Shown: one piece after another, positions 3,482-61,048 of the stretch
How the letters are laid out: every line of letters starts with the position of its first letter
How positions within the stretch are numbered: the stretch's first letter is position 1
DNA from: Uloborus plumipes
Lineage: Eukaryota; Arthropoda; Arachnida; Araneae; Uloboridae
Direction: 5' to 3'
Length of the DNA stretch: 64,000 bases
Assembly (NCBI GenBank): GCA_038373865.1
Contig: JAXGGA010005588.1
Location: 1-64,000 of the forward strand
The notes under the pieces: model-generated
The model's input: the letters and a program-made list of their open reading frames with translations, nothing else
Told to the model about the DNA's origin: nothing
The model's database searches: none
Made by a program: the position numbers and the translations under genes

Positions 3482-7883
<4,402 letters not shown>

Positions 7884-20397: not shown

Positions 20398-20445
20398 CAG
20401 ACAGACCGACCGACAGACCGACACACAGACCGACACACAAATTCC
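20398..20445. repeat. (GACAGACC/GACC)n microsatellite
   Basis: Imperfect GACAGACCGACC units at the end of the satellite array. The same composition recurs at 21507-21562, each time followed by AAATTCCCCATCTCAATACC. Confidence 0.9.
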
Positions 20446-20513
20446 CCATCTCAATACCCTACTTTTAAATTTTTAATTTTTCGATATTCATTTTACCTTT
20501 TTATTTTTTTAAC

Positions 20514-21506: not shown

Positions 21507-21725
21507 GGGGGGACAGACAGACCGACAGACCGACAGACCGACCGACCGACAGACCGACACACAAATTCCCCATCTCAATACCCTACTTTCAAATTTTTAA
21601 TTTTTCGATATTTATTTCATTTTTTTGTTTCTTTTTGACTTTTTTTTACTTGGCGATATTTTTTGAACTTGGCGATATTTTTTGGACTTGGCGATATTTT
21701 TTGGACTTGGCGACATTTTTTAGAT
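21507..21725. repeat. second (GACC/GACA)n tract, linker and short 19-bp array
   Basis: It repeats the order seen at 20398-20514: microsatellite, AAATTCCCCATCTCAATACC linker, TTTTTAATTTTTCGATATT, then copies of the 19-bp unit (about four here). This shows a higher-order unit made of satellite, microsatellite, linker and minisatellite. Confidence 0.88.
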
Positions 21726-28107: not shown

Positions 28108-29647
28108 CTTTCCTGAAGGATATGCCATTTCAGTAGGCAATTCTGGTATATTTTGTGTTTTTAGAAGTGAAAATGTAGACTCAATGAATCCATCAATATG
28201 TGGCTTTACCACCACTCTCCCATGACTTCTGTTATTGTAAATGAACTGCTTATAAGTTGATATTTTGAAAATATCTTTTTCATCCTTAGGAATACCTCTT
28301 CCTGAGGTTTCATCTGAGTGGGTTATTTTTTTATAATACCGTGGCCACCACGTTTTGAAATTAAAAATATCTTTCGGTGTAACTCTATGGATGGTAAAAC
28401 GACTTGTTTTACTAGCCTTTAAAATAAGTTACTATACTCATCTGGAGTATAAATTCTATCATCCCTTCTTTGACTCTTTTTATAGATCCAAAGTCTCTGT
28501 CACATGGGGAGAATGAATGTTCACGAACAGGAAAGTTGTGAATGATTTCATCAAAACGTCCTTTGTCACAAAGATTCATTAGAAATCTTACAACCGTATG
28601 GTTTTTATTTTGGCCTGATGGTCCGTCACTAAAAAGGATGAGCTTTTTTATAGTTACAGGTATCTCGGTTTGTATGTAGTGTAGTAAAAAACTACATACC
28701 TCATTTGGGCTTTTATTACCTTCTCCTTCATGATAAAGGTAAATTTTTGATTTACTACTTTTTAAATCATGAATACTGAAAACGTTTACCCATAGTTGTC
28801 TCATATAAAAAATTTCCTGGACAGGAATATTCGGGAGAGGCAAGTTTTGCATGTAATCAAAGCATAGGGCTGAAGTTTCATTATCCTCATTCTTGGATGC
28901 TTCTTTTAAATTAGCATAAAATTTTGTAGCCCTCCTTTTATGTACCATTAGCTCTGCAGCTGGCTCACGTTTAGTATAGTCGTCTAGAGTTTGGTCTTTT
29001 AGGTTTACCTTTAGGCTTTCGCATTGACTACAAACATCTACTTGCGGTCTACCGAAGGAGTACCCAAAGTTTTCACGAAAATATAAATAATAGAAGTTAT
29101 ACTTGACAACATCTTTTAGATTAGGATGGTCATTAATGAATAATTCATGCATTTTCGTAATATTTAAACGGGAATCAAGGTATTTTCTGCGTTTTTCCCA
29201 GTAGTGGGACTCTTTAACTTCAAATTTAGAGATTTGCTCATGAATAAGCGCGCAAATGTGACCCGAAATGGCATTGCCACTTTTGTTTTGACCTCTCTCG
29301 TCTTTAGGGGTTGTATTGGTACATAATAACTGACATATTCTCCCTAATCTGTTGTGCGAAATTCCATGAATTTTCATAAAAACATTTTTGCAAACATGTT
29401 TCAATTTCCCACTGATTTTTAAATTGTATTTGTAAGAATAATTTCTTTTAAAGGCTTTTCTTTCAGAATTTTCCACACTTGATGTTTTCTCTTCAGCATG
29501 GTTTTGATTTTTCGTTCTACGCATAACTTCACTAATTTCTATTAGGGTTTGAATGTATGTATCTTGTGAATTTTTGTTTTCAAGTTTGTGGAAATAACCC
29601 CAAGTTTCATTTGTTACATATTCATTCATGTTTAAATAGCATTTCAT
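28108..29647 (-). pseudogene. decayed transposase-like gene, unassigned family
   Basis: A 411-codon frame (29647-28412) starts at ATG. It contains KHVCKNVFMKIHGISHNRLG, DERGQNKSGN, a CSQCESL pair of Cys, CFDYMQNLPLPNIP, LFSDGPSGQNKNHTVV and HSFSPCDRDFGSIKR. This pattern fits a protein family I recall as multicopy and uncharacterised in arthropods and cnidarians, probably transposase-derived. Asp in DYMQ, SDGPSGQN and DRDFG are candidate catalytic acids. After GSIK the true frame shifts by one (loss near an A-run at about 28488), giving DRIYTPDEYSN. A second shift near 28420 leads to KASKTSRFTIHRVTPKDIFN, which runs to KPHIDGFIESTF and a GTGAGAA donor at 28107. Two frameshifts make it a pseudogene; later exons were not found. 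Confidence 0.65.
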
Positions 29648-31287
29648 TTTGCAATTACATGTTAAAAATATTTAAGCCCTATTAGCATTTCATGGTAACA
29701 TATCACTGGTATATTGATATAGAGCTCCATGCTTTTTGCCAGAGTTTGTTGACTTTAAAGCCCATTATCTCAAAATCAGGTTTTTGCGGGTTAACTCCTT
29801 TTTGCATAACACCATCCATTTTTAACCTATAGTGTATTATTTCGACAAAAAAACAGTGTGCGAGTGATATATTTTAAAATAGGGTGTATCCAAAAAAAAC
29901 TTTTTTTCACATAAAATTTCCTGTAGTTCGACGGGATAAACAGTAATAAATCCTTGTCCTCGTCTTGATTAGAAGAATTGGGGTTAGAATCTTGATTTTT
30001 CAAACAGTTTCCTTCAAATAAGTTTGAATTGGAACAACAGCACTAAGTGTTCCGATTCACCCCGCAAATTTTTTTCCTATGACATTTTTCAGAATTCTTC
30101 ATTTTTATGACACAATTTATAAAAAATGTAAATTCTAATGGGGTATTCTGTTGTTCAGATACATGTATTATTGAAACATACCACTCTTAGTTTTTAAATA
30201 TAAGAAGGTTTGTTCTTGCATATGAAGTTTTGCGGTCTATGAAAATGTGATGTTTTCTAGCATTCCACGAACAGCCCTCCTTAGAAGCCAGTACCGTTGC
30301 CAGATTGAAAAAAGTAATTTTTTCCTACTTTCTATGATCTTACCTTTCTAAAAAAAAAAATTCATGGCGAAAAATACCCAATAGTATCTTTATGAAGAAT
30401 TTCTTCGTACGGTCGGGAAGTTTTGTTCCGATTGACCCCGCTGTTCCTATACACCCCATTTTACGGTATTAATTTTAGTATAAACACAATTTTTTGTTAA
30501 TTTGAGTTAATATCTTGAGTTGCTGGTCATTCATTATACAAAATTTGTTCATTTCTATTTTTATTTCAAAAAAAAATAGGAATCACTACTTCTATTAGGG
30601 ATAAAGACTTGCTGCATTTTACTTAATAAACAACTAGTTACTTAATATTATGAAAGACTTTATATATCCTTAGATTGTGTGCGAATTTTTATTGCTGTGG
30701 GTCAATAGTTTCGGTCATCTCTAGAGCCATTCACTATTAATGGATCGCTAATTTTATGGGCGCTTTTTTTCTCTTTTTTACCATATATTTTTCCAATGGG
30801 AAAAATGGTTCTTGGTTACATTAGTGCCGAAAAGTTACCATATGATATCTTAAATTGATTTTTGGCCCTATTGGAATGAAGAATTGCAATTTTTTATTTA
30901 AAAAAAAGGAAAAGGATAATAAAAATATGGTAAAATGTACTCATTTTGTATAGTGAACGCTCTCAGATTTAACTGAAGCATTGGTCCACTCCACTTCATT
31001 AACAAAATGCACGCATTCTGACTAGACCATATGAAAGCTTTTAGGTTCTATTAGAACTAAAGTTAATAATTTATTTTCAATAAAAAAAGTATTAAAAAAG
31101 AAAAAAAATAACATATATTGTGTAATGAAAGGCCTCAAAGGTAACTAAATATATTTACGTAGAGCAACCAAGGTTTACACACACTCTAAAGATACTACAT
31201 GGCAACCGTTTGGCCCTATTAGAACAAATAATTCTTATTTCTCATTCTTTGAGAAAATGATTAAAATTGTCGAACTTTTATAATAAA
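29648..31287. other. non-coding, with two GTTCCGATTNACCCCGC repeats
   Basis: No gene was seen. GTTCCGATTCACCCCGC (about 30048-30064) and GTTCCGATTGACCCCGC (about 30426-30442, followed by TGTTCCTATACACCCC) are direct repeats upstream of the transposase-like pseudogene. They may be subterminal sites of the same transposon, but no matching opposite end was found. Confidence 0.4.
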
Positions 31288-36571: not shown

Positions 36572-36618
36572 TGTAGAGTTTAAATCCAACGTTTAAATGC
36601 ACAAATTTACAGGTATAC

Positions 36619-36664
36619 TGTAAACACGTGTTTCGGGGCTACAAGGAGCCCCTTTTTCAATACA
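36619..36664 (-). ncRNA. mirror copy of the hammerhead-like motif
   Basis: It is the reverse-complement partner of 37066-37111 in the left arm of the palindrome: CGGGGCTACAAGGAGCCCC and ACACGTGTTTC on the plus strand. One base differs near the cleavage side (TGTAAACACG). Confidence 0.4.
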
Positions 36665-37065
36665 AGAAGTGTGAGCTTTAGGATGAAGAATCATCCGATA
36701 AAAGCAACACATTCGAACAAAAGATAGTATAAATAGCAAAAACTGGAAATAAACAAAACAAACAAGACAATGCTTAGAGCCGAAATTTATTACATGAAAC
36801 CATCAAGAAAAAACCGTTAAGAAATAAATTTCCAAAAGATCCGATAGATCTTAAACATTCATTTTTTGACAATGTTTAAGATCTATCGGATCTTTTGGAA
36901 ATTTATTTCTTAACGGTTTTTTCTTGATGGTTTCATGTAATAAATTTCGGCTCTAAGCATTGTCTTGTTTGTTTTGTTTATTTCCAGTTTTTGCTATTTA
37001 TACTATCTTTTGTTCGAATGTGTTGCTTTTATCGGATGATTCTTCATCCTAAAGCTCACACTTCT

Positions 37066-37111
37066 TGTATTGAAAAAGGGGCTCCTTGTAGCCCCGAAAC
37101 ACGTGTCTACA
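37066..37111 (+). ncRNA. hammerhead-ribozyme-like motif, degenerate core
   Basis: Stem I TGTA (37066-37069) pairs with TACA (37108-37111). The first core is TTGAAAAA, where CUGANGA is expected. Stem II GGGGCT/AGCCCC has a CCTTGT loop. Then come GAAA (37096-37099), a very short stem III within CACGTG, and a GUC cleavage triplet (37105-37107). Short stem III is typical of PLE hammerheads. The weakened first core may have lost activity. The mirror copy lies in the left arm. Confidence 0.45.
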
Positions 37112-37158
37112 GTATACCTGTAAATTTGTGCATTTAAACGTTGGATTTAAACTCTACA

Positions 37159-39136: not shown

Positions 39137-40157
39137 TTAATAGAGGGTGTAACCTTCAGAATTTTGAAGGCAAGCCTGCAAGCGTGCATGCATTATGTCA
39201 TACAGATGCCGAATGTCACTTTGTGGTATGGAGTGCCATGCTTGTTGCACTTGTTGTGTCAATACTAGGACCGTCATTGCTGACTGTGGATGATGCTCGA
39301 GGTGCCGTCCAATGATATCCCATCCGTTATCAATTCGAGACAGATCAGGTGATTTTTCAGGTCATGGTAACATGTCAGCACTCTGTAGAGCACATCGCGT
39401 TACAGCAGCGATGTGAGGGCAAGCATTATCCTGTTGGAAAACTCCCCCTTGAATGCTACTCATTAAGGGCTGTACTACTGGTTAAATTACCAGACTGACG
39501 ACAAATTTTCAATCAGTGAGTTTGGGATAACCACAAGAGTGCCCCTACTGTCGTAGGAAATTGCTCCAGAGACCGCGACTCCAGGTGTGGGTCCCGTGTG
39601 TCTAGGCCGTACCGCTTGGATGCAGGCGGTCCCCTGGCTCCCTTCTGACTAATATACAGCCACCACTGGCACTAAGGCAGAATCTGTTTTCATCAAAAAT
39701 TACAACAGATCTCCACTCCGACCTCCAGTAAGCTCTGTCTTGACACCACTGCCGTCGGAAACGGCAATGATTTGCAGTCAACGGAATACCGGCTACAGGC
39801 TGCCTGGCTCGGAGCTGTCCTTGAAGTAAACAATTTTTTACCGTTCCTTGGGTCACGACGGTACCAACTGCAGCTCGAATGTCAGCCGCAGATGCAGTAC
39901 GATGCGCCACAGCCGTACGCAAGATTCGGCGATCTTCCTTCTTAGTCGTGCCACGTGGCAGCTCGGAACTCGATCTTCTTGAGGTAGTACCATCCCTTGA
40001 CCATAGCTTCCAATAATCATGCATGATGGAAACATTCCCCTCCAAGTCTTTCTGCAATATCGCGAAATGAAAATCCACCTTCTCGTAGCCAAATTGTACG
40101 ACCTCGTTTAAACTCGGTGAGCTGTTGATAATGGCTTCTTCGTCTTCTTAAAGGCAT
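39137..40157 (-). pseudogene. Tc1-like transposase, broken
   Basis: It starts at ATG 40157 (MPLRRRRSHYQQLTEFKRGR) and ends with LQNSEGYTLY and TAA 39137-39139. This is nearly the whole DD34E transposase: N-terminal HTH (FRDIAERLG), the second HTH (TASAADIRAAVG), first Asp in VVIFDENRF, second Asp in FQQDNACPH, and the third site in SPDLSRIDNGW. The third catalytic residue, normally Glu in PIE, is Asp here. Frameshifts occur near 40045 and 39608. In-frame stops are at 39482-39484 (TAA) and 39362-39364 (TGA where Trp is expected). It is non-functional, although the terminal repeats could still be mobilised by a related enzyme. Confidence 0.92.
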
Positions 40158-40670: not shown

Positions 40671-41404
40671 TGCGCGAAGCGCGAAATTTCAATCGATGTC
40701 ATCTTTCAGTTGTATAAACACGCCTACCAAATTTCGTTTATGCAACACAAGACTTTCTTGGTGTTGGGATTTTTTTTCCGCCAGTGTATGTTGGTTGGGT
40801 ATGAATTTTTTTTTCTGTTTTTCAAATTTAAACCTTGCACTAAATAACAAAAACTCCAATCATCACTGTGATTTTCAGGCTCTCTCCACATCATGGGCAA
40901 TCCGAAACGAAGTGATTTTTTCTTACCTTGAAACAATTATCTCAGTTCCTCCAAACACACAGAATACACTATACGGGGAGCCCAAGATTTATCTTGGTCA
41001 CCTAGTTCAACACCAAATTGAGCAAAATACAATTTCTTAACAAAATTAGAAATGTTCCTTTGTTACTTTTTGACCGTTAAGACCCACAAATGTAACAGAA
41101 ATAGTAAAGACAGTTGACTTATCCTCTAGTAGTCATTTGTTCAAAAAGAGTACAAAACTGTTAGATATGTATACCACAGTGGCTATAGCTCCACAGATTG
41201 CAATCAAGGTCACTGTTCACTACATTCTTTATAAAGAGGCCTAGTGGACAGTAAGAATAGGAAGGAATCAAACTGAGTGGGAATTGTCTTGTTTTAGTAG
41301 GAAATAGATTGTCCCAGTTTAGATTTATTGTCTTATTCAAATAAATAAATAAAATACTAGTTAAGGATTCCGGGCTGTTGTGCCGTGGTCTAAATGGCTT
41401 TAAT

Positions 41405-41448
41405 CCATACGTTTCGATCGCAACTGCGGCGGTCATCTTCAGTGGGTG
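41405..41448 (-). ncRNA. hammerhead-like motif in the PLE 3' region
   Basis: On the minus strand: CCA, then CTGAAGA (a perfect CUGANGA core), stem II GACCGC/GCGATC with one mismatch, GAAA, then C-GUA as a minimal stem III and cleavage triplet, and TGG pairing with CCA as stem I. Canonical PLEs are known to carry hammerheads with very short stem III. An extra U follows the first core, so activity is uncertain. Confidence 0.55.
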
Positions 41449-41521
41449 TCGTTGATTAATTTGGCGACTGATGCGAAATTTCGAACTGCTGCAAGATTTT
41501 AAATTGAAAACGCAGCGCCTT

Positions 41522-42155
41522 CTACCTTCCGGCTCGAGATTGACAGATGACTGGATGCCAAAGCTTGTTAACTTTTACTTCTTCCTCCTTCTTGTTAAAA
41601 TTATTTGGGTGTTTGAAAATTTCAATCTCCTCTCTATTCAATCTGGGGAAATAATTTGAAGTCCGTGAAATTATTTTGGCCTCTTTGAATTTTATATCAT
41701 GTATTCCATTACTGAAAGTGTGCTCTGCGATAGTCGACTTTTCAGTCTGACCCAGCCGGCAATTTCTCTGATGCTCTTTGATTCTTGTATTAACGCTCCG
41801 TTTTGTCGTCCCGATATAAACTAATCCACAGGAACAGGAGATCTTATAAACTCCTGCGGCGGACAACGGATCTCTAGCATCTTTCACTGAACGCAGCAGG
41901 TCGCTGACTCTATTGGAGGGCTTAAAAACCGTCTTAATATTATGTCGACGTAAAAGTCTTTCAATTCGGTCTGTGACGTCCTCAACGTAGGGAAGGTAGG
42001 CTATGGACTTGACCGGTTCTTCTTCGGGCATCTTTCTTTCTTTCTTGGGGTGGAAAGCTCTCTTAATTTCTTGTTTAGAAAATCCATTGGCTTGGAAAAC
42101 ATTAGTAAGGTGGGCCAGCTCATTTTCAAAAGCAGACGGTTCGCAGATTCTACAA
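41522..42155 (-). pseudogene. PLE C-terminal GIY-YIG endonuclease fragment
   Basis: The coding sequence enters at the inverted-repeat breakpoint with CEPSAFENELAHLTNVFQANG, the end of the RT-side region, and continues through KAFHPKK-type linker sequence. Next come KPSNRVSDLLRS, then the endonuclease: AGVYKISCSCGLVYIGTTKR, with the GIY-YIG halves VYK and YIG, Arg in NTRIKEHQ, and STIAEHTFSNGH-like His residues. It ends in TAG at 41522. The whole RT core is missing, so it is a 5'-truncated fragment. The domain order (endonuclease last) separates it from the Naiad copies at 48-59 kb. Confidence 0.88.
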
Positions 42156-42501
42156 GTTAATACAAGAATCAAAGAGCATCAGAGAAATTGCCGGCTGGGT
42201 CAGACTGAAAAGTCGACTATCGCAGAGCACACTTTCAGTAATGGAATACATGATATAAAATTCAAAGAGGCCAAAATAATTTCACGGACTTCAAATTATT
42301 TCCCCAGATTGAATAGAGAGGAGATTGAAATTTTCAAACACCCAAATAATTTTAACAAGAAGGAGGAAGAAGTAAAAGTTAACAAGCTTTGGCATCCAGT
42401 CATCTGTCAATCTCGAGCCGGAAGGTAGAAGGCGCTGCGTTTTCAATTTAAAATCTTGCAGCAGTTCGAAATTTCGCATCAGTCGCCAAATTAATCAACG
42501 A

Positions 42502-42545
42502 CACCCACTGAAGATGACCGCCGCAGTTGCGATCGAAACGTATGG
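42502..42545 (+). ncRNA. mirror copy of the PLE hammerhead-like motif
   Basis: The same motif in the right arm of the palindrome, read on the plus strand: CACTGAAGATGACCGC, then GCGATCGAAACGTATGG. Confidence 0.55.
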
Positions 42546-42916
42546 ATTAAAGCCATTTAGACCACGGCACAACAGCCCGGAATCCTTAACTAGTATTTAC
42601 TCCGGCCGTGAAAGCCTTCATTCTTAAATAAATAAAACTTATTTTTTTTCAAGAAACGTGCTCACATTGTTTAATAACATGTTCACCATGTAAGCTCTAT
42701 TGTTCAGATTAAGCTTAACACATATATAAGTCGTACTATTGAAAAATCTTGCCGATATTGAACCTGAAAACCCGAAAAATAAGCATATTTCAAGCGAAAT
42801 TTGTGACTTATCTGAGGGTGATGGAATTTTTTCACTATTTTTTCCGTAATCAGTACATAAAATAATGTTCAAATAATTGTTAAATTTGCAAAAATTTTTT
42901 CAGCGCAGACCTGTGT

Positions 42917-45900: not shown

Positions 45901-47869
45901 AAGAAGCAAAAAAACTTTGTTTAAATATTTTATTCATTAAAGCAGTGATGTATTAGATATTAGATAACTCGTTGATTCCTCGTTGGAAAATACTTGGGAA
46001 ACAACTACCAAAACATGCATTAACCCCTAACAGACCGTATGAATTAAGTTTTATCTTACATTTCTCCCACAGTTTATGCAACAAGAGATGTTTTTTTCCT
46101 TCTTTTTTCAGTAATGGTGAAAAATAAAAGATAAAAATTGCCTGATTCAAACTGATTCTTTGATTATCATACTGCAACGATTGTTAAAATGCAATTGTGT
46201 CAGATGATACTTTCTGCTCAGAGTACTGGTTCTTTTAAGTAATTTAAATATTATCGCTTTACTCACAATTAAAGAGACTTTACTCAGATTCAATTAAATA
46301 TGCCATGCACGAGTACCAATAATAAATTTGCAGTTCAATTTACACAGTTACAATAATTTGTTGACAAGCCATTTTTTTCCTCAAACTTAACATTTTTTTA
46401 CATGTTAAAATATTTCGCATTTTTCCTCAAATAAATATTAGAAAATATTTTCTTGAAAACATGACTCTGAGAAATCATGCACTTATTTACTTATTTTCTA
46501 ACTGAAAAAGTTCCTCTGTTTATCATTATTTTTTGTGACATTGTTTTTGTAAAAGAATACTTGGACTGACTTTCTTTCTTTTGCGAAGAATTTTCTATGT
46601 GATCCTATTCCTTTTAGAGCTCTACCTGCTTTACAACTCCGACTTTATTTTGTTGCCTCCATAAGTAAGACATAGTTACTTTAAACTAAACTATTCAAAG
46701 TGCTTTAATAGTAGAGTTGAAATAAAATACGAAGTTTAAAAATGATCGTTACTGAAATTTTTAAACTTTTTATTTCATTCTAAACTTTAAACCTCTACAA
46801 CCCTTTTCAATGTCTAGTACACTTATATGTCATAGATACTTAGGTGTTAGATAGTACATTTTATACAATTGAAAATTTTCAAAATTCAATACTTGACTAA
46901 AAATTACGTTTCGACCGGTATTGCATCTACTTTGATCATTTTTGGCAAGCATCATAATGTTCATAGGGGAAAATGGCGCGGCACATGATTTTTTTTTTCT
47001 TTGAAACAAATATGTTTAATTTCATAGAGATGAAAATGTTCCTATGACCAAATAGTCTTTTCATTGTGCTATGAGACAGTTTTTTTCTCATTTATTTATT
47101 TATTAATATTTCTTTACCATATACTTTTTCCTTTTCTTCAATTGTTCACACGTACCCATGTGTACACCCTACATACCCATGTGTACATTTTTTTTAAACT
47201 TGTGTAATATCCTACACTAATATTAACAGCAGGGGGAGACTACGGAAGCTGTTGATATGCTCTCCAGATGTTTCTTTCACAAGTCCATCAACATCTACCT
47301 CAGGACTAATTCGCAAAAAAAAATATTTCTGATCCAGTAAACACATTTAAACAATCATAAATATATGTTAATATTCATACAATTATTTGCATATTTGCAA
47401 GAACTGAACTTGGTTTACTAATTTGAAATATGTTTTTTATGTAAAGAAGACAATGATGAAACTGTATATAAAAGCTGCGGAAAGAAAGTTTTCACCACAG
47501 AAACTCTAAATGGATCATTGCAATAAATTTTTTGCAAAGAAGTAGGACTGATACTGCTATCACTTGAGAATGTTTCAAGATGCTTTGCCTCCATTTGTTT
47601 TAGTAAAACATACCATGTTCAGTTCTCACATATGCCCCGTGTTCTTATTCGTCCTCTTTTCCGCCACATGCATGTGCCATTGAAATATTGACGAGTGTCT
47701 CAATAACAGTTCAAGCCTATTCTTTTATAAAAAAAAATAGCTAATACTTCATCGTCATAAATGAGGAATTACCTTTTCAGGCATAACTCATGTAAATTTT
47801 CTTATTTAACATAACTCATATATTTTTTTACCTTTTACACTTTTAATCAATAACTCTTGTCAATATCAA
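42917..47869. other. non-coding, nothing firmly recognised
   Basis: About 5 kb of AT-rich DNA. It holds (TTTA)n at about 45260-45340 and poly-T at about 45146. A GC-richer patch at 43000-43220 has a B-box-like AAGTTCAAATCCGGGG on the minus strand but no convincing SINE. No gene supported. Confidence 0.45.
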
Positions 47870-47892
47870 ATATATATATATATATATATATA
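47870..47892. repeat. (TA)n, left flank of the Naiad array
   Basis: TA dinucleotides run directly into the 3' end of the leftmost copy (complement CACCTAAATA). A matching (TA)n lies at 59275-59294, so the array sits inside a TA microsatellite. Confidence 0.9.
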
Positions 47893-48358
47893 TTTAGGTG
47901 TTTTTATATGAGGTCCGCCCTCGGGCGTGCACGAAGTCAGTGTAAATAACAACAATTAAAAAATATTTGAAAAACGTCTAGAAAAAGTTTTGAAAAAACG
48001 TTAAAGATTCAAAATGCAATACGACAATTTTTCATAAACAACTAGAATTTCAAAAAATATCTGGGTAAGTTACTGCTTCGTCTACGGAGAGCGGGAGCAG
48101 TTGGTGAAAATAATAATTTGCAGGTTTCTGAAGAGGTCAGCTGCACACGAGTTAGCATAACAAGAAAGGATTTTAAGTTTTGAGAGGTCCAAAAGGACGA
48201 AAAAGTGAAATACTACTGCCAACTCATGAATACAACCAACCCCCCCGCTCTGACCTGCAAATAAAAGAAAGACAGATCACTTACCCAGTATTAGAAAAAA
48301 GAAGCAACACCATTATTCGTATTCCTCTTGCTCAATCCTTTTCCGTACCAAGTCGATG

Positions 48359-48441
48359 CGGTTCGCAGAGCTCGCTTCCATGCAACACCTCCCTCAAAAC
48401 GGGTTTAAGTACAGCATATCATCAGAGTTGAAAGGAAACCG
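48359..48441 (-). promoter_or_regulatory. SECIS-like hairpin, copy A
   Basis: It begins 32 nt past the TAA stop. Same sequence as 58648-58730, where the fold is described. Confidence 0.7.
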
Positions 48442-48472
48442 TTGCCAAAACGTAGTTGTTTGGGTGAAAAAA

Positions 48473-50908
48473 TTATCGATTCTGCCGAAAAGATTTATTA
48501 AACAAATTAAGGTAGTAAAAGATAAACTCTGCAGGATAGTTGTTTTGGTAATATAGACCAGCAATGAATTTGTAAACCTGTTTGTTAAAATGTTTCTTAT
48601 CGTTACAGATCTTGAAAAATCTGCAGAGTTGGCCGATTATGATATTTATAAAAATTTTTTTATTTAAATTACTAAACCAATGAGGCATGCACTTTGCATG
48701 AAAGTTGAAATGTTCTTTTTTATCGTAAAGATCTGTTGAAAGTTGAGAATCTCTAATTTTAAAGGAAATATCTAAAAAGTTCGCAGAATCAATTTCTTCA
48801 TTGGCCTTGTTTAGTTGTAGTGTTTGTGGGTAAACAAGTTTAAATTCTTCTTCCATATTTTTATTAAAGACGAGGATATCGTCGATATACCTGAAAATGC
48901 TGATCCTTTTATTATATTTAACAGTATAGTTAAATTCATAGTAAAAAAGATATAAGTTAGCAGCTGTGCTGGAGTAATTTGTACCCATGCCAATTCCATG
49001 TATTTGTTTAAAAGTGAAATTATTAAAAGTGACAAAATTGTTGAAAATGCAATAATGGCAAAGACTGTCGAAAAAACTTCTATCGATACCAAGTTCCACT
49101 CCGATATAAAAAGAATCGTAAATTTTCATGAGAGTAACGTATAAGTCTTCTAGTGGAATGTTGCAAAATAGATTCTCAAAATCAAAAGTATATATTGATG
49201 TGGGTGATGAATTCATTTTACTCTTGATTTCATAGCTATTATCGATGCACCAGAAATAGCTCGAGAGCTTATATTTGTTTTTCAAAAAGGTGTAAATTTG
49301 CTTCAACATAGATTGAAGTTTGACGTTAATGCTTTTTCCGAAACTGTTTGTGGTTGAACAAATAAATCTAAATTTGATCGGGGATTTGTGAAACTTGGGA
49401 GTCATAAAGATAAATGGTGTAGACTGAAAATTTGAAATTGAAAAATTAAATGCGAACCTCGATTTGCAAAGTTTTTTAAAAGCAATAAACTGCTTTAAGA
49501 CGATTTCAGTGCTAAGGTTAGACTTACTATAATAAAAAGATGAATTAAGTTCTTGTAAGCTTGTACTTATATAAAATTGTTTTCATATGATACCGTAGTT
49601 ATTTGCTGCTTTATCAATGGGAACAAAAATGAAAAGATCTTTTAATTTCTGTATATATTCAACATCATGTTTGTCAAGTTTTTGATACTGATATTCATTA
49701 CTGTTTATTTTTGCAGTTAAGAAGGTTTTAAATTCAATGATAACATTGTCCTTCCATTCTTGAAAGGCTTCAAACGGCGTTGAATTTGCGTAAGCAGTAT
49801 TTTTTATGAAATTGTCCAAGTTCTGTATGAAAATCCTAACTACCTTATTAAAATTACATTTGGTGTTTAACCTGAATTTCGTTCCGAAATTCATGAGATT
49901 TTTAACGTTTGCATTTTTTATAATGTTTAAATTGCCAGTGATTACGTGTTTATGAACAGGATCAGAAAAACTATTAAAATCATTTTCCATACATTTACAA
50001 GGAATATTGCTTGGTGTGTTAGAAAAAGCTATCTCACGGTAGTTAAAAATCCCTTTGCAGAAAGGTTTTGGATATTTAAAAGCTGCAATAATATTTTTAT
50101 TCTGTACGGGAAAAAAGGTAGTTGAATTGTTTAGAATTTTACTAAAAGGAATGCTTTCGAAACTTTTCTGTTGAAATAATATTGGAAAATAGATATTATT
50201 CCTTAATGGCAATTCAGCTTTAATACGATAATTAATGAGATCAAAAATTAAGTCCTTACATTGCTTATTTACAAACTTGTATTTCGAACAACTTGTTTTT
50301 AATTTCTTCAGAGTGGAAGTTTTTAATTTAAAAATACTGTTTTTAATTTGACCGACGTTAAAATGGTTTATAAAATTGCTTTCTGTTTCTTTGCACCATT
50401 GCGTTAAATTGATGTTGTTTATGCGTTTGCTGTTTTTGTGAGAGCCTCTATGCCCCCTATTAATTACGGATTTGCTGTTGAAATTTCGAAGTAATTTGAA
50501 GACATTGATAATATCGTTTGTATTTAAAAAATTAAGATTTGTATTAAGACCGTAAGGATATAAGGTTTTATGCTTAAAAATGAAATTATTTTCAGCTTTG
50601 AGTCGTTCGTCAGTGTCTTCTATTAAAGCTAGTATATCAATTTTTATATTATCAAAGGAATGTAAACGAAAATGATTAATTTCAAATGATGGATGGACAG
50701 CTTTATTAATTTGAGAACGATGTAGGTTTATTCTTAGGTGTAGTTCATTGGAAGTTTGTCCGATGTAGCATTGCATACAGGTCAAACAAGTAATTTTGTA
50801 TATGACATTGTTATGTTTGCAAAAAGGGATTTGGCCGTTCGGCGAGACATCGACAAAATCTCCACTAACTACACAAGTTTTACAATTTCTTTTTTTACAC
50901 TTAGCCAT
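48473..50908 (-). CDS. Naiad endonuclease/reverse transcriptase, UGA-recoded (copy A)
   Basis: It is identical in layout to the plus-strand copy at 56181-58616, which is described in full. ATG is at 50906-50908, the in-frame TGA (codon 442) at 49583-49585 and the TAA stop at 48473-48475. The frame is open on both sides of the TGA. Sequence agrees with copy D at the base near the TGA where copy B differs. A conventional gene finder would split it into a 5' endonuclease frame and a 3' RT frame. Confidence 0.85.
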
Positions 50909-51621
50909 GGGAAAAAATGTGTAATATTTTTTTGAAAAATTATTTTTGTAGGCTTTATGCCTAATATGCAAAAACGAAATTACACCAACGATGTAAACGC
51001 ACGAAAGCGGGACGCCGAGAAGTCAATACAAGACATAAGCGCAAAATGCAGCATTTTTTGCATTGTATTATACATATGGGTGAAATGTGAAAATAAGATA
51101 TTCTACATTCAATCAGCGCATAATTGCAGCTAGAGCATTAAATGCATTCTAAATATTTAGGTGTTTTTATATGAGGTCCGCCCTCGGGCGTGCACGAAGT
51201 CAGTGTAAATAACAACAATTAAAAAATATTTGAAAAACGTCTAGAAAAAGTTTTGAAAAAACGTTAAAGATTCAAAATGCAATACGACAATTTTTCATAA
51301 ACAACTAGAATTTCAAAAAATATCTGGGTAAGTTACTGCTTCGTCTACGGAGAGCGGGAGCAGTTGGTGAAAATAATAATTTGCAGGTTTCTGAAGAGGT
51401 CAGCTGCACACGAGTTAGCATAACAAGAAAGGATTTTAAGTTTTGAGAGGTCCAAAAGGACGAAAAAGTGAAATACTACTGCCAACTCATGAATACAACC
51501 AACCCCCCCGCTCTGACCTGCAAATAAAAGAAAGACAGATCACTTACCCAGTATTAGAAAAAAGAAGCAACACCATTATTCGTATTCCTCTTGCTCAATC
51601 CTTTTCCGTACCAAGTCGATG

Positions 51622-51704
51622 CGGTTCGCAGAGCTCGCTTCCATGCAACACCTCCCTCAAAACGGGTTTAAGTACAGCATATCATCAGAGTTGAAAGGAA
51701 ACCG
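51622..51704 (-). promoter_or_regulatory. SECIS-like hairpin, copy B
   Basis: Same position relative to the stop and same sequence as the other copies; the fold is described at 58648-58730. Confidence 0.7.
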
Positions 51705-51735
51705 TTGCCAAAACGTAGTTGTTTGGGTGAAAAAA

Positions 51736-54171
51736 TTATCGATTCTGCCGAAAAGATTTATTAAACAAATTAAGGTAGTAAAAGATAAACTCTGCAGGAT
51801 AGTTGTTTTGGTAATATAGACCAGCAATGAATTTGTAAACCTGTTTGTTAAAATGTTTCTTATCGTTACAGATCTTGAAAAATCTGCAGAGTTGGCCGAT
51901 TATGATATTTATAAAAATTTTTTTATTTAAATTACTAAACCAATGAGGCATGCACTTTGCATGAAAGTTGAAATGTTCTTTTTTATCGTAAAGATCTGTT
52001 GAAAGTTGAGAATCTCTAATTTTAAAGGAAATATCTAAAAAGTTCGCAGAATCAATTTCTTCATTGGCCTTGTTTAGTTGTAGTGTTTGTGGGTAAACAA
52101 GTTTAAATTCTTCTTCCATATTTTTATTAAAGACGAGGATATCGTCGATATACCTGAAAATGCTGATCCTTTTATTATATTTAACAGTATAGTTAAATTC
52201 ATAGTAAAAAAGATATAAGTTAGCAGCTGTGCTGGAGTAATTTGTACCCATGCCAATTCCATGTATTTGTTTAAAAGTGAAATTATTAAAAGTGACAAAA
52301 TTGTTGAAAATGCAATAATGGCAAAGACTGTCGAAAAAACTTCTATCGATACCAAGTTCCACTCCGATATAAAAAGAATCGTAAATTTTCATGAGAGTAA
52401 CGTATAAGTCTTCTAGTGGAATGTTGCAAAATAGATTCTCAAAATCAAAAGTATATATTGATGTGGGTGATGAATTCATTTTACTCTTGATTTCATAGCT
52501 ATTATCGATGCACCAGAAATAGCTCGAGAGCTTATATTTGTTTTTCAAAAAGGTGTAAATTTGCTTCAACATAGATTGAAGTTTGACGTTAATGCTTTTT
52601 CCGAAACTGTTTGTGGTTGAACAAATAAATCTAAATTTGATCGGGGATTTGTGAAACTTGGGAGTCATAAAGATAAATGGTGTAGACTGAAAATTTGAAA
52701 TTGAAAAATTAAATGCGAACCTCGATTTGCAAAGTTTTTTAAAAGCAATAAACTGCTTTAAGACGATTTCAGTGCTAAGGTTAGACTTACTATAATAAAA
52801 AGATGAATTAAGTTCTTGTAAGCTTGTACTTAAATAAAATTGTTTTCATATGATACCGTAGTTATTTGCTGCTTTATCAATGGGAACAAAAATGAAAAGA
52901 TCTTTTAATTTCTGTATATATTCAACATCATGTTTGTCAAGTTTTTGATACTGATATTCATTACTGTTTATTTTTGCAGTTAAGAAGGTTTTAAATTCAA
53001 TGATAACATTGTCCTTCCATTCTTGAAAGGCTTCAAACGGCGTTGAATTTGCGTAAGCAGTATTTTTTATGAAATTGTCCAAGTTCTGTATGAAAATCCT
53101 AACTACCTTATTAAAATTACATTTGGTGTTTAACCTGAATTTCGTTCCGAAATTCATGAGATTTTTAACGTTTGCATTTTTTATAATGTTTAAATTGCCA
53201 GTGATTACGTGTTTATGAACAGGATCAGAAAAACTATTAAAATCATTTTCCATACATTTACAAGGAATATTGCTTGGTGTGTTAGAAAAAGCTATCTCAC
53301 GGTAGTTAAAAATCCCTTTGCAGAAAGGTTTTGGATATTTAAAAGCTGCAATAATATTTTTATTCTGTACGGGAAAAAAGGTAGTTGAATTGTTTAGAAT
53401 TTTACTAAAAGGAATGCTTTCGAAACTTTTCTGTTGAAATAATATTGGAAAATAGATATTATTCCTTAATGGCAATTCAGCTTTAATACGATAATTAATG
53501 AGATCAAAAATTAAGTCCTTACATTGCTTATTTACAAACTTGTATTTCGAACAACTTGTTTTTAATTTCTTCAGAGTGGAAGTTTTTAATTTAAAAATAC
53601 TGTTTTTAATTTGACCGACGTTAAAATGGTTTATAAAATTGCTTTCTGTTTCTTTGCACCATTGCGTTAAATTGATGTTGTTTATGCGTTTGCTGTTTTT
53701 GTGAGAGCCTCTATGCCCCCTATTAATTACGGATTTGCTGTTGAAATTTCGAAGTAATTTGAAGACATTGATAATATCGTTTGTATTTAAAAAATTAAGA
53801 TTTGTATTAAGACCGTAAGGATATAAGGTTTTATGCTTAAAAATGAAATTATTTTCAGCTTTGAGTCGTTCGTCAGTGTCTTCTATTAAAGCTAGTATAT
53901 CAATTTTTATATTATCAAAGGAATGTAAACGAAAATGATTAATTTCAAATGATGGATGGACAGCTTTATTAATTTGAGAACGATGTAGGTTTATTCTTAG
54001 GTGTAGTTCATTGGAAGTTTGTCCGATGTAGCATTGCATACAGGTCAAACAAGTAATTTTGTATATGACATTGTTATGTTTGCAAAAAGGGATTTGGCCG
54101 TTCGGCGAGACATCGACAAAATCTCCACTAACTACACAAGTTTTACAATTTCTTTTTTTACACTTAGCCAT
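51736..54171 (-). CDS. Naiad endonuclease/reverse transcriptase, UGA-recoded (copy B)
   Basis: ATG is at 54169-54171, TGA (codon 442) at 52846-52848, TAA at 51736-51738. Domains are as in the copy at 56181-58616. One substitution was noticed: codon 447, five codons after the TGA, is TTA (Leu) in place of ATA (Ile). Both parts of the frame remain open. Confidence 0.85.
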
Positions 54172-54418
54172 GGGAAAAAATGTGTAATATTTTTTTGAAA
54201 AATTATTTTTGTAGGCTTTATGCCTAATATGCAAAAACGAAATTACACCAACGATGTAAACGCACGAAAGCGGGACGCCGAGAAGTCAATACAAGACATA
54301 AGCGCAAAATGCAGCATTTTTTGCATTGTATTATACATATGGGTGAAATGTGAAAATAAGATATTCTACATTCAATCAGCGCATAATTGCAGCTAGAGCA
54401 TTAAATGCATTCTAAATA

Positions 54419-54458
54419 TTTAGGTGTTTTTATATGAGGTCCGCCCTCGGATCCCAAG
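54419..54458 (-). mobile_element. inversion junction: 3'-end fragment of a minus copy plus filler
   Basis: 54419-54450 repeats the extreme 3' end of the unit in minus orientation (TTTAGGTG through CCGCCCTCGG), then stops abruptly. ATCCCAAG (54451-54458) matches neither side exactly and joins to plus-strand RT sequence. This is the centre of the inverted array. Confidence 0.75.
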
Positions 54459-55353
54459 ATTTATTTGTTCAACCACAAACAGTTTCGGAAAAAGCATTAA
54501 CGTCAAACTTCAATCTATGTTGAAGCAAATTTACACCTTTTTGAAAAACAAATATAAGCTCTCGAGCTATTTCTGGTGCATCGATAATAGCTATGAAATC
54601 AAGAGTAAAATGAATTCATCACCCACATCAATATATACTTTTGATTTTGAGAATCTATTTTGCAACATTCCACTAGAAGACTTATACGTTACTCTCATGA
54701 AAATTTACGATTCTTTTTATATCGGAGTGGAACTTGGTATCGATAGAAGTTTTTTCGACAGTCTTTGCCATTATTGCATTTTCAACAATTTTGTCACTTT
54801 TAATAATTTCACTTTTAAACAAATACATGGAATTGGCATGGGTACAAATTACTCCAGCACAGCTGCTAACTTATATCTTTTTTACTATGAATTTAACTAT
54901 ACTGTTAAATATAATAAAAGGATCAGCATTTTCAGGTATATCGACGATATCCTCGTCTTTAATAAAAATATGGAAGAAGAATTTAAACTTGTTTACCCAC
55001 AAACACTACAACTAAACAAGGCCAATGAAGAAATTGATTCTGCGAACTTTTTAGATATTTCCTTTAAAATTAGAGATTCTCAACTTTCAACAGATCTTTA
55101 CGATAAAAAAGAACATTTCAACTTTCATGCAAAGTGCATGCCTCATTGGTTTAGTAATTTAAATAAAAAAATTTTTATAAATATCATAATCGGCCAACTC
55201 TGCAGATTTTTCAAGATCTGTAACGATAAGAAACATTTTAACAAACAGGTTTACAAATTCATTGCTGGTCTATATTACCAAAACAACTATCCTGCAGAGT
55301 TTATCTTTTACTACCTTAATTTGTTTAATAAATCTTTTCGGCAGAATCGATAA
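54459..55353 (+). pseudogene. Naiad reverse transcriptase fragment (copy C)
   Basis: Coding starts at RFICSTTNSFGKS (about residue 514 of the full protein) and ends at the same TAA (55351-55353). It retains RT motifs A (TFDFENLF), B (HGIGMGTNYSS) and C (YIDD). It lacks the endonuclease, the CKC linker and the UGA codon. The upstream frame is junction sequence, so it is unlikely to make a functional protein. Confidence 0.88.
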
Positions 55354-55384
55354 TTTTTTCACCCAAACAACTACGTTTTGGCAA

Positions 55385-55467
55385 CGGTTTCCTTTCAACT
55401 CTGATGATATGCTGTACTTAAACCCGTTTTGAGGGAGGTGTTGCATGGAAGCGAGCTCTGCGAACCG
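55385..55467 (+). promoter_or_regulatory. SECIS-like hairpin, copy C
   Basis: Retained after the truncated coding region. Same sequence as 58648-58730. Confidence 0.65.
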
Positions 55468-56180
55468 CATCGACTTGGTACGGAAAAGGATTGAGCAAGA
55501 GGAATACGAATAATGGTGTTGCTTCTTTTTTCTAATACTGGGTAAGTGATCTGTCTTTCTTTTATTTGCAGGTCAGAGCGGGGGGGTTGGTTGTATTCAT
55601 GAGTTGGCAGTAGTATTTCACTTTTTCGTCCTTTTGGACCTCTCAAAACTTAAAATCCTTTCTTGTTATGCTAACTCGTGTGCAGCTGACCTCTTCAGAA
55701 ACCTGCAAATTATTATTTTCACCAACTGCTCCCGCTCTCCGTAGACGAAGCAGTAACTTACCCAGATATTTTTTGAAATTCTAGTTGTTTATGAAAAATT
55801 GTCGTATTGCATTTTGAATCTTTAACGTTTTTTCAAAACTTTTTCTAGACGTTTTTCAAATATTTTTTAATTGTTGTTATTTACACTGACTTCGTGCACG
55901 CCCGAGGGCGGACCTCATATAAAAACACCTAAATATTTAGAATGCATTTAATGCTCTAGCTGCAATTATGCGCTGATTGAATGTAGAATATCTTATTTTC
56001 ACATTTCACCCATATGTATAATACAATGCAAAAAATGCTGCATTTTGCGCTTATGTCTTGTATTGACTTCTCGGCGTCCCGCTTTCGTGCGTTTACATCG
56101 TTGGTGTAATTTCGTTTTTGCATATTAGGCATAAAGCCTACAAAAATAATTTTTCAAAAAAATATTACACATTTTTTCCC

Positions 56181-58616
56181 ATGGCTAAGTGTAAAAAAAG
56201 AAATTGTAAAACTTGTGTAGTTAGTGGAGATTTTGTCGATGTCTCGCCGAACGGCCAAATCCCTTTTTGCAAACATAACAATGTCATATACAAAATTACT
56301 TGTTTGACCTGTATGCAATGCTACATCGGACAAACTTCCAATGAACTACACCTAAGAATAAACCTACATCGTTCTCAAATTAATAAAGCTGTCCATCCAT
56401 CATTTGAAATTAATCATTTTCGTTTACATTCCTTTGATAATATAAAAATTGATATACTAGCTTTAATAGAAGACACTGACGAACGACTCAAAGCTGAAAA
56501 TAATTTCATTTTTAAGCATAAAACCTTATATCCTTACGGTCTTAATACAAATCTTAATTTTTTAAATACAAACGATATTATCAATGTCTTCAAATTACTT
56601 CGAAATTTCAACAGCAAATCCGTAATTAATAGGGGGCATAGAGGCTCTCACAAAAACAGCAAACGCATAAACAACATCAATTTAACGCAATGGTGCAAAG
56701 AAACAGAAAGCAATTTTATAAACCATTTTAACGTCGGTCAAATTAAAAACAGTATTTTTAAATTAAAAACTTCCACTCTGAAGAAATTAAAAACAAGTTG
56801 TTCGAAATACAAGTTTGTAAATAAGCAATGTAAGGACTTAATTTTTGATCTCATTAATTATCGTATTAAAGCTGAATTGCCATTAAGGAATAATATCTAT
56901 TTTCCAATATTATTTCAACAGAAAAGTTTCGAAAGCATTCCTTTTAGTAAAATTCTAAACAATTCAACTACCTTTTTTCCCGTACAGAATAAAAATATTA
57001 TTGCAGCTTTTAAATATCCAAAACCTTTCTGCAAAGGGATTTTTAACTACCGTGAGATAGCTTTTTCTAACACACCAAGCAATATTCCTTGTAAATGTAT
57101 GGAAAATGATTTTAATAGTTTTTCTGATCCTGTTCATAAACACGTAATCACTGGCAATTTAAACATTATAAAAAATGCAAACGTTAAAAATCTCATGAAT
57201 TTCGGAACGAAATTCAGGTTAAACACCAAATGTAATTTTAATAAGGTAGTTAGGATTTTCATACAGAACTTGGACAATTTCATAAAAAATACTGCTTACG
57301 CAAATTCAACGCCGTTTGAAGCCTTTCAAGAATGGAAGGACAATGTTATCATTGAATTTAAAACCTTCTTAACTGCAAAAATAAACAGTAATGAATATCA
57401 GTATCAAAAACTTGACAAACATGATGTTGAATATATACAGAAATTAAAAGATCTTTTCATTTTTGTTCCCATTGATAAAGCAGCAAATAACTACGGTATC
57501 ATATGAAAACAATTTTATATAAGTACAAGCTTACAAGAACTTAATTCATCTTTTTATTATAGTAAGTCTAACCTTAGCACTGAAATCGTCTTAAAGCAGT
57601 TTATTGCTTTTAAAAAACTTTGCAAATCGAGGTTCGCATTTAATTTTTCAATTTCAAATTTTCAGTCTACACCATTTATCTTTATGACTCCCAAGTTTCA
57701 CAAATCCCCGATCAAATTTAGATTTATTTGTTCAACCACAAACAGTTTCGGAAAAAGCATTAACGTCAAACTTCAATCTATGTTGAAGCAAATTTACACC
57801 TTTTTGAAAAACAAATATAAGCTCTCGAGCTATTTCTGGTGCATCGATAATAGCTATGAAATCAAGAGTAAAATGAATTCATCACCCACATCAATATATA
57901 CTTTTGATTTTGAGAATCTATTTTGCAACATTCCACTAGAAGACTTATACGTTACTCTCATGAAAATTTACGATTCTTTTTATATCGGAGTGGAACTTGG
58001 TATCGATAGAAGTTTTTTCGACAGTCTTTGCCATTATTGCATTTTCAACAATTTTGTCACTTTTAATAATTTCACTTTTAAACAAATACATGGAATTGGC
58101 ATGGGTACAAATTACTCCAGCACAGCTGCTAACTTATATCTTTTTTACTATGAATTTAACTATACTGTTAAATATAATAAAAGGATCAGCATTTTCAGGT
58201 ATATCGACGATATCCTCGTCTTTAATAAAAATATGGAAGAAGAATTTAAACTTGTTTACCCACAAACACTACAACTAAACAAGGCCAATGAAGAAATTGA
58301 TTCTGCGAACTTTTTAGATATTTCCTTTAAAATTAGAGATTCTCAACTTTCAACAGATCTTTACGATAAAAAAGAACATTTCAACTTTCATGCAAAGTGC
58401 ATGCCTCATTGGTTTAGTAATTTAAATAAAAAAATTTTTATAAATATCATAATCGGCCAACTCTGCAGATTTTTCAAGATCTGTAACGATAAGAAACATT
58501 TTAACAAACAGGTTTACAAATTCATTGCTGGTCTATATTACCAAAACAACTATCCTGCAGAGTTTATCTTTTACTACCTTAATTTGTTTAATAAATCTTT
58601 TCGGCAGAATCGATAA
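56181..58616 (+). CDS. Naiad endonuclease/reverse transcriptase selenoprotein (copy D)
   Basis: One 812-codon frame (811 residues), read through TGA at 57504-57506 (codon 442), to TAA 58614-58616. I chose ATG 56181; an upstream TTG at 56118 is in frame, but no earlier ATG follows the in-frame stops. In order: Cys cluster C4, C9, C12, C30; GIY-YIG endonuclease with VIY (35-37), YIG (48-50), R59 and H63; a basic linker; the CKC motif (304-306) followed by HKHVITGNLNII; VPIDKAANNYGII then UGA and KQFY; RT with motif A DFENLF (from D576), motif B HGIGMGT (638-644) and motif C YIDD (674-677). No domain follows the RT. This permuted order defines Naiad PLEs, and several spider and clam Naiads encode selenocysteine. 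The UGA sits where related proteins are expected to have Cys (II-C-KK-Y). The alternative is a true stop, giving two proteins. Confidence 0.85.
57504..57506 (+). other. in-frame UGA, probable selenocysteine codon 442
   Basis: The frames before (from 56181) and after (to 58616) are the same frame. The 59 codons between the TGA and the next ATG (57684) contain no other stop and encode plausible RT N-terminal sequence. Equivalent codons are at 49583-49585 (copy A) and 52846-52848 (copy B). Confidence 0.8.
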
Positions 58617-58647
58617 TTTTTTCACCCAAACAACTACGTTTTGGCAA

Positions 58648-58730
58648 CGGTTTCCTTTCAACTCTGATGATATGCTGTACTTAAACCCGTTTTGAGGGAG
58701 GTGTTGCATGGAAGCGAGCTCTGCGAACCG
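58648..58730 (+). promoter_or_regulatory. SECIS-like hairpin, copy D
   Basis: Lower helix CGGTT (58648-58652) pairs with AACCG (58726-58730). CTC (58662-58664) pairs with GAG (58716-58718). After a small internal loop comes the core ATGA (58667-58670) opposite GGAA (58710-58713), giving the tandem G.A/A.G pairs of the SECIS quartet. Helix II is TATGC-T-GTACTT against AGGTGT-T-GCATG-type pairing (58671-58682 with 58699-58710, one U.U mismatch and several G.U pairs). The 16-nt apical loop opens with AAA (58683-58685). ATGA-to-AA spacing is 12 nt, in the canonical range. It lies 32 nt after the stop codon, in the 3' UTR, as expected for a eukaryotic SECIS. Confidence 0.72.
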
Positions 58731-59274
58731 CATCGACTTGGTACGGAAAAGGATTGAGCAAGAGGAATACGAATAATGGTGTTGCTTCTTTTTTCTAATA
58801 CTGGGTAAGTGATCTGTCTTTCTTTTATTTGCAGGTCAGAGCGGGGGGGTTGGTTGTATTCATGAGTTGGCAGTAGTATTTCACTTTTTCGTCCTTTTGG
58901 ACCTCTCAAAACTTAAAATCCTTTCTTGTTATGCTAACTCGTGTGCAGCTGACCTCTTCAGAAACCTGCAAATTATTATTTTCACCAACTGCTCCCGCTC
59001 TCCGTAGACGAAGCAGTAACTTACCCAGATATTTTTTGAAATTCTAGTTGTTTATGAAAAATTGTCGTATTGCATTTTGAATCTTTAACGTTTTTTCAAA
59101 ACTTTTTCTAGACGTTTTTCAAATATTTTTTAATTGTTGTTATTTACACTGACTTCGTGCACGCCCGAGGGCGGACCTCATATAAAAACACCTAAATATT
59201 TAGAATGCATTTAATGCTCTAGCTGCAATTATGCGCTGATTGAATGTAGAATATCTTATTTTCACATTTCACCC

Positions 59275-59299
59275 ATATATATATATATATATATTTATT

Positions 59300-59342
<43 letters not shown>

Positions 59343-59347
59343 GCGTG
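59275..59347. repeat. (TA)n then (TG)n microsatellite, right flank of the array
   Basis: TA repeat (59275-59294), a short TTTATTTA spacer, then TG repeats to about 59347 with two GC interruptions. Confidence 0.95.
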
Positions 59348-59735
59348 TGTGGCGCTTGGTTCTAAAAAGGCCTAAGTCAAAAATGTTAGTTTCGAGAAAA
59401 AGGCGGTGAAAGATATTTGAGATTTTTTAGAATGCTATAACTTTCTTATATTAAGATTCCCATTATTATTTTTTGGTATTTGTTTATTGTTAGTGTAAAG
59501 AAACATTATTTTATCATATGAAATTTTTTATGTATTATATTATATAAATTATATATTATATATTAAAAATATATAATATATATAATAATTTATATAATAT
59601 ATAATATATATATTATTATATATTATATAGACATTGGCCTTTGTAGAATTAGAGTTTTATTAAATTGGAAACTTTTGATGTAAATAACACAGAATGTGAA
59701 AAAATTGACATTGGCCCTTTTAAAACCAAGCCACA
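59348..59735. mobile_element. MITE-like TIR element with AT-rich core
   Basis: The left end TGTGGCGCTTGGTTCTAAAA and complemented right end TGTGGCTTGGTTTTAAAAGG are imperfect inverted repeats, continuing to GGCC.AA.GTC. The core contains a long TATATTATA palindrome-rich block (about 59510-59630). It abuts the TG microsatellite. Non-coding. Confidence 0.6.
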
Positions 59736-61048
59736 GATATATTCCAAGAAAATGAAAGACATATTTCTCTTTTCGTAAATAGTTCTCTCACAAATAAATC
59801 CTGTTACTAAAGCCTAATATAATTTTGCGTATGAAGCAGCTTTGCATCGATTTATTATTTTGACAGAAACAATTTGCTTCAATCAAATTTTCTCATTAGA
59901 AAGAATTATCTCATCACCTATTAGTTTTTGCAGTGGTCCTTCATTTATCGAAGCTCTCAACCTTTTTTTTTAGCTCTTATGTCATAAAATTATTTTAAAA
60001 CTTTTAATCATAAATTATGGTAATTAATTTACCATATGTGCAATAGTGTTAAATTTTGCGAATGCTTTTAGAATACTAGGCAGGTTTGCGGAGCTAAAGT
60101 TTTTTCTTCCTTAAAAAAGGAAATTAAAACGGTCAATTTCTTTTAACTTTGTTACTTACTTAATTGTTTCTTTGAACTTTTTACGGAACTTTCAAAATAT
60201 AAAAATTTTAGACTTTGAGAAAAATTTTCTTGCTTAAAAGATACCACTTTTACTCTAGCTCTAAGTGATAATGTGAAATAAAAATTCCTTAGTACCCTGC
60301 TTGAAAATTGCAACAGATGTATACCAACGAACGAAAAAAAATTGTCCGCATATTCTTTTAAAAAACTAGAGAGCAAAATTTATGCTTAAAATTTAATCGA
60401 ACTAACTGACAAAAAAAAATCTCGGAAAATATTTTCCAACACTCTGTATTTTTAAGTGAGCTTAACATGCATATGTGTTATTTAAAATCACTTGGTTAAT
60501 TAGCTTATTTTTTTTAAGAAAAAACAATGTTGTCTGGCATTAAATATATAATCTTAAATAATGCTACATGATTTACATTATATGATTCCTAAAAATTAAT
60601 GATATCTTAAACATGAACTTCTGTAGAATTTCTGGGGAAACTTTTAGTTTCTTCTTTCGAAAAAGTTTGTCAAAATGGATGAATCAAGATTACCAGAGCT
60701 GAAATATTAGAAAACATTAAAAACAAAGAAGGAGACACTATTCCATTAAGGTCAAGTGAAGGGAAAGTATTCTCTTGTTTTCCTGAAATCTTATTTCCAT
60801 ATATATAACTTTTGCTGTTTGCGCAAGTTTAAAAAAGAAAAAATAATTCTTTCAAGCGCCTTGGGCACCTTGCTTCTTTCAAGATATGCAACATTTCCTT
60901 TCTTTATTGCCCCGAAGTCAATGGCCACCTACATTTTGCCTATTCTATTTTTATGATTTTTTTTCTATTCTAGACATTCTTTTGAATATTTCCATGTTTC
61001 TATGCAGTCTAATAAGAAATGATTCTGAAATTTATTTTTACATGAAAT
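59736..61048. other. non-coding, nothing recognised
   Basis: AT-rich sequence without a supported gene or element end. Confidence 0.45.

Follow-up and report, generated by a model that had tools for sequence, protein, structure and literature searches.

Organization of the locus

The window, meaning the whole 64,000-nucleotide stretch of Uloborus plumipes DNA that was analysed, contains an array of closely similar retroelement copies. The reference copy used throughout lies on the plus strand and carries a long reading frame for an endonuclease (EN) and a reverse transcriptase (RT), interrupted by a single TGA and followed by a hairpin resembling a SECIS element. The features are as follows.

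47887–59287, both strands: entire inverted/tandem array, delimited by self-BLAST (minus strand from 54450 to 47887, plus strand from 54457 to about 59287)
48376–48422, minus strand: SECIS-like hairpin of the second full copy (motif scan)
48473–51022, minus strand: reading frame of the second full copy, TGA at 49583–49585
51639–51685, minus strand: SECIS-like hairpin of the third full copy (motif scan)
51736–54285, minus strand: reading frame of the third full copy, TGA at 52846–52848
54457–55939, plus strand: 5'-truncated copy in tandem ahead of the full plus-strand copy (pseudo-LTR arrangement)
55404–55450, plus strand: SECIS-like hairpin of the truncated copy (motif scan)
56181–58616, plus strand: EN-RT open reading frame, 811 residues if the TGA is read through, N-terminus MAKC
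56181–57503, plus strand: N-terminal Cys cluster, GIY-YIG endonuclease part and CxC (C304, C306), from Pfam PF01541 and Cys columns
57504–57506, plus strand: in-frame TGA, codon 442, proposed selenocysteine (frame and alignment column 442)
57507–58613, plus strand: reverse transcriptase part with YIDD, from Pfam PF00078
58667–58713, plus strand: form-2 SECIS-like hairpin, from motif and pairing (Rfam SECIS_1 at 58662–58725, below the gathering score)

Self-comparison resolves the minus strand of the array into two tandem copies with a period of 3263, running from 54450 down to 47887, and the plus strand into the truncated copy from 54457 followed by the full copy to about 59287. The plus-strand and minus-strand arrays diverge, pointing apart. 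The truncated copy begins at RT residue 514 and so is without the TGA site. TA repeats border the array on the left and TA/TG repeats on the right, an observation from one locus only. The array is one compound insertion, and its mirrored arrangement may be an assembly artefact.

The copies are 99.9–100% alike. One minus-strand copy differs from the plus-strand copy at 2 positions over 3217 nt; the other differs at 56, all from aligned offset 3133 onward, where the comparison runs into flanking DNA. The preliminary description had emphasized that three full copies keep the TGA layout. The TGA is indeed present in all three, but because they are near-identical they count as one amplified unit and a single observation of the TGA, which is weaker evidence than had been implied.

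Reading frame and domains

The frame at 56181–58616 contains exactly two stops, the TGA at codon 442 (57504–57506) and the terminal TAA at codon 812 (58614–58616). Pfam domains above cut-off lie on both sides of the TGA, with GIY-YIG (PF01541, E 8e-6) upstream and RVT_1 (PF00078, E 1.5e-8) downstream. The 369 codons after the TGA are open, which has a probability of about 1e-13 by chance at the base composition of the ORF, and the alternative frames over the same RT stretch contain 13 and 44 stops. These results bear out the earlier observation that the TGA interrupts the EN frame while the RT frame continues open beyond it. The permuted domain order proposed for the element, with GIY-YIG N-terminal and RVT_1 after it, is likewise found along 56181–58616, although EN and RT share one ORF only if the UGA is read.

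A GT...AG pair at 57496–57523, noticed by eye, would excise the TGA as an intron but spans 28 nt, which is too short. AlphaFold2 models of the full protein from a single sequence (pLDDT 32.7) and of the RT part from six sequences (pLDDT 46.0, pTM 0.31) were too poor for a fold search, and a strand-turn-strand near residue 442 in the RT-part model was left out of the evidence. Searching solved structures with the whole protein sequence gave nothing up to E 1. The RT alignment gave four weak matches, led by a maturase RT (E 0.097), and these were not used as evidence.

Relatives with cysteine at column 442

Relatives were found with a nucleotide pattern encoding D-K-A-x-N-(5)-C-K-x-[FY]-Y, which itself demands the Cys. 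In genome contigs this pattern gave 10 loci, five of which are real relatives by tblastn: L001 (E 1e-63), L009 (3e-61), L002 (3e-57), L008 (8e-46), and L003 (1e-10). The other loci, L004–L007 and L010, look like chance by tblastn. The same pattern gave 0 loci in viral contigs, where a version with the Cys codon changed to TGA returned one locus, L011, whose best match (E 6.5) is not meaningful. Protein-based scans of viral contigs, genome contigs, plasmids, and phages, in which no Cys was imposed, detected no relatives.

All five relatives share the DKAxNN...C-K-x-[FY]-Y motif with the element, and all five have a Cys codon at column 442 where the element has UGA, a 5/5 count to be read with the Cys demanded by the search pattern. 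Identity to the element is 25–32% for four of them and 22% for the L003 piece. Homology runs on both sides of the in-frame UGA, as seen by tblastn and in the alignment. So biased a search shows that the Cys form is real and spread over diverged lineages, and no more.

L001, L002, and L009 are full length, whereas L008 and L003 are partial. The full-length relatives are single uninterrupted frames of 934, 1013, and 967 codons, respectively, and align to element residues 3–795, 1–808, and 30–808. They share Cys columns 4, 9, 12, 30, 41, 44, 304, 306, and 768 with the element, and the MAKC at its N-terminus matches MTKC in L002 and MVKC in L009. In L002 and L009, Pfam detects GIY-YIG above cut-off and RVT_1 only below its own; it gives no match on L001. 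The contigs of the five relatives carry archaeal or bacterial MAG labels, in one case that of a mussel symbiont, and are probably eukaryotic contamination.

Two arrangements within the relatives are recorded separately. On the minus strand of L008 (1169–3808), a Naiad-like RT is in frame with a ubiquitin carboxyl-terminal hydrolase (PF00443, E 5.6e-27), a possible RT-deubiquitinase fusion in a Penelope-like element (PLE) judging from the frame. On the plus strand of L009 (214–870), a 218-residue frame upstream of the Naiad-like ORF resembles, by eye, a LINE ORF1 coiled coil.

A SECIS-like hairpin behind the reading frame

The hairpin at 58667–58713 starts 50 nt beyond the terminal TAA. It reads ATGA, TATGCTGTACTT, AAA, a CCC-GTTTTGA-GGG mini-stem, AGGTGTTGCATG, and GA. 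Its helix strands pair at 12 positions with one U-U mismatch, and with them go the AAA, the CCC/GGG mini-stem, and a GGAA. A strict search of the window on both strands, requiring ATGA, a helix of 11 or more positions with no more than one mismatch, AA, and GA, gave four matches, all inside the four element copies. A looser scan of both strands gave 11, consisting of the four element copies at -11.3 kcal/mol and 7 others at -0.8 to -6.7.

Simulations were used to gauge how often such hairpins arise by chance. An order-1 simulation of 4 Mb of single strand gave 19 strict matches, 3 of them at a dG of -11.3 or lower, and 2 Mb with the composition of the 3' region gave 5 strict matches, none at -11.3. 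In 40 Mb simulated at order 2 there were 256 strict matches, with 24 at -11.3 or lower and 17 of those also having a mini-stem. Scaled to the 674 nt that follow the ORF, the chance expectation is about 0.004 strict matches, 0.0004 at -11.3 or lower, and 0.0003 with the mini-stem as well, under scan rules that were modelled on the known SECIS consensus and set after the hairpin had been seen.

The Rfam SECIS_1 model aligns over its full length (positions 1–64 of 64) at 58662–58725 and outscored the one other match in a scan of 204 nt. It reaches 15.8 bits, whereas the gathering score is 35, with E 1.8 over 4227 families; the gathering score is a library cut-off and not itself a defining feature of a SECIS. 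Two wider Rfam scans, one of the whole window and a lax one of 47000–60500, did not return SECIS_1. The hairpin region is no more stable than shuffled sequence (z 0.42; 133 of 200 shuffles fold at least as well), and the longer stretch 58640–58740 has a competing fold. The SECIS architecture, by its consensus, is present in the 3' UTR in motif and pairing, not in fold stability.

L001, L002, and L009 contain no SECIS-like hairpin on either strand at a helix of at least 10, as expected of Cys-coding forms. L008 gave one weak match on the strand opposite to the RT. A strong, form-2-like hairpin (-15.5 kcal/mol) occurs at position 4708 on the minus strand of the L003 contig, from the mussel-symbiont MAG; it was rejected as a SECIS of the PLE because it lies upstream of the PLE fragment rather than behind it, and its surroundings showed no clear selenoprotein frame. 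In the spider element, an intron-like GTAAGT...TTTGCAG of only 30 nt lies at 58805–58834, behind the SECIS-like hairpin.

Probable assignment to Naiad elements

Naiads are PLEs with an N-terminal EN, defined further by a CxC linker, a CCHH motif in the EN, an IFD in the RT, copies with pseudo-LTRs, absence of a hammerhead ribozyme, an insertion bias toward microsatellites, and a position in the RT tree distinct from Chlamys. Craig, Yushenova, Rodriguez, and Arkhipova (2021, Mol Biol Evol 38:5005–5020) reportedly described selenocysteine-containing Naiads in spiders and clams, with multiple selenocysteines per protein. The CxC of the present element corresponds to C304/C306, common to L001, L002, and L009, and its tandem and inverted copies have pseudo-LTRs, in keeping with that definition. 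No hammerhead ribozyme matched at the Rfam gathering score in the window, and none was among the six lax matches in 47000–60500. Taken together, the order of the domains, the CxC in the linker, and the tandem and inverted copies support assignment of the element as a Naiad-type PLE.

Two published accounts of PLEs describe comparable arrangements: PMC11167929 has copies in tandem with pseudo-LTRs, and PMC8969392 has inverted pseudo-LTRs in addition to tandem copies and pseudo-LTRs. Canonical Penelope/Poseidon elements, such as the Anolis element of PMC11167929, resemble the spider element in joining a GIY-YIG EN and a telomerase-like RT in one ORF and in forming tandem pseudo-LTR copies. They differ in that their EN is C-terminal, whereas that of the spider element is N-terminal.

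The selenocysteine Naiads share with the element the EN-CxC-RT order, tandem and inverted copies, microsatellite flanks (in the element, at its one locus), and a UGA that in the element is proposed to encode selenocysteine, but reportedly have multiple selenocysteines per protein where the element would have one. A literature search found no link between Naiad PLEs and selenocysteine, turning up a paper on PLEs and Naiad whose main text makes no mention of selenocysteine; this is a weak result since the 2021 work of Craig et al. lay outside its coverage. Selenocysteine Naiads are already reported, and the element would add a single-selenocysteine example together with a candidate SECIS hairpin.

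Proposed decoding of the internal UGA

The element is very probably a Naiad-type PLE that encodes an EN-RT with one selenocysteine, UGA 442 being read as Sec. The proposal that Sec442 replaces a Cys gains strength from the SECIS-like hairpin behind the ORF, which is missing from three Cys-coding relatives, and from the Cys of the five relatives recovered by the biased search. In the proposed mechanism, the element mRNA would end in the pseudo-LTR region and carry its own SECIS, the hairpin at 58667–58713. Host SBP2, EFsec, and Sec-tRNA would then recode the UGA, which lies about 1.16 kb ahead of the hairpin, and Sec442 would take the place of the motif cysteine in N-N-x-x-x-x-C-K-x-[FY]-Y, just before the RT core. 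Without recoding, the product would end after the EN-CxC part. We infer the recoding itself, the dependence on host machinery, and the function of Sec442.

The TGA could instead have arisen as a Cys-to-stop mutation in one copy, followed by local tandem or inverted multiplication or by assembly duplication, leaving a dead element. The clustering and near-identity of the copies mean that one mutation would suffice for all three. This history is nevertheless unlikely, because the 811 codons contain no other stop and because only 10 of the 348 single changes in the ORF that can create a nonsense codon (2.9%) turn a conserved Cys codon into TGA, a count in which one of the ten conserved-Cys columns, 442, depends on the Cys-imposing search. 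A SECIS-like hairpin would be unexpected behind such a mutated frame and would add a further coincidence.

Since the codon sits between the EN and linker and the RT core, an EN-CxC protein and a separate RT might also be produced, either by ordinary readthrough, a standard tRNA decoding the UGA, or by initiation at an internal site. Both routes are quite improbable. The first in-frame ATG past the TGA is only at residue 502, and re-initiation there is unlikely to be of much help, as it would not restore the C-K motif. Ordinary readthrough sits poorly with the weak local fold after the UGA (-4.4 kcal/mol over 81 nt), and neither route explains the SECIS-like hairpin. It is scarcely credible that another genetic code reads UGA as Trp or some other residue. 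Nothing beyond the open frame speaks for it, whereas Trp is encoded by TGG four times in the ORF, the frame has just one TGA, and the relatives have Cys rather than Trp at column 442, where the search demanded Cys.

If UGA 442 is read as selenocysteine, the codon might also act as a switch comparable to Gag-Pol, a suggestion offered very tentatively. Most ribosomes would release the EN-CxC part, and a selenium-dependent minority would yield full EN-RT, so that retrotransposition would be gated by the selenium status of the host. The single-Sec element would also represent a first step toward the multi-Sec Naiads of spiders and clams, possibly in another host lineage.

The Sec pathway has been lost in many insects. 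A Sec-dependent element would be mobile only in hosts with this pathway, which would place a testable restriction on how far it spreads and is transferred horizontally. Standard annotation would report the EN-RT gene as two. With its own SECIS alongside, a single Cys-to-Sec change would also offer a way to ask what role the Cys plays in a telomerase-related RT.

Remainder of the window

Across the window, no Rfam family reached its gathering score and no tRNA was found. Neither these searches nor Pfam on 3 frames outside the array revealed a host gene or RNA. Several repeats and transposon remnants were noted. A 443-bp perfect inverted repeat occupies 41352–42598, and the frames 41522–42178 (minus strand) and 42000–42428 (plus strand) have in common a stretch that by eye resembles GIY-YIG and may be a fragment of a canonical PLE; Pfam on one of these two frames gave no match. 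A near-perfect palindrome of about 589 bp (98%) lies at 36572–37158. On the minus strand, a 419-residue frame at 28412–29671 has a sub-threshold match to DUF7869, and transposon remnants occur at 13621–14100 (mariner-like by eye) and 39602–40147 (Tc3-type HTH, PF01498). A dense tandem-repeat block at 19393–21721 accounts for long spurious frames on both strands.
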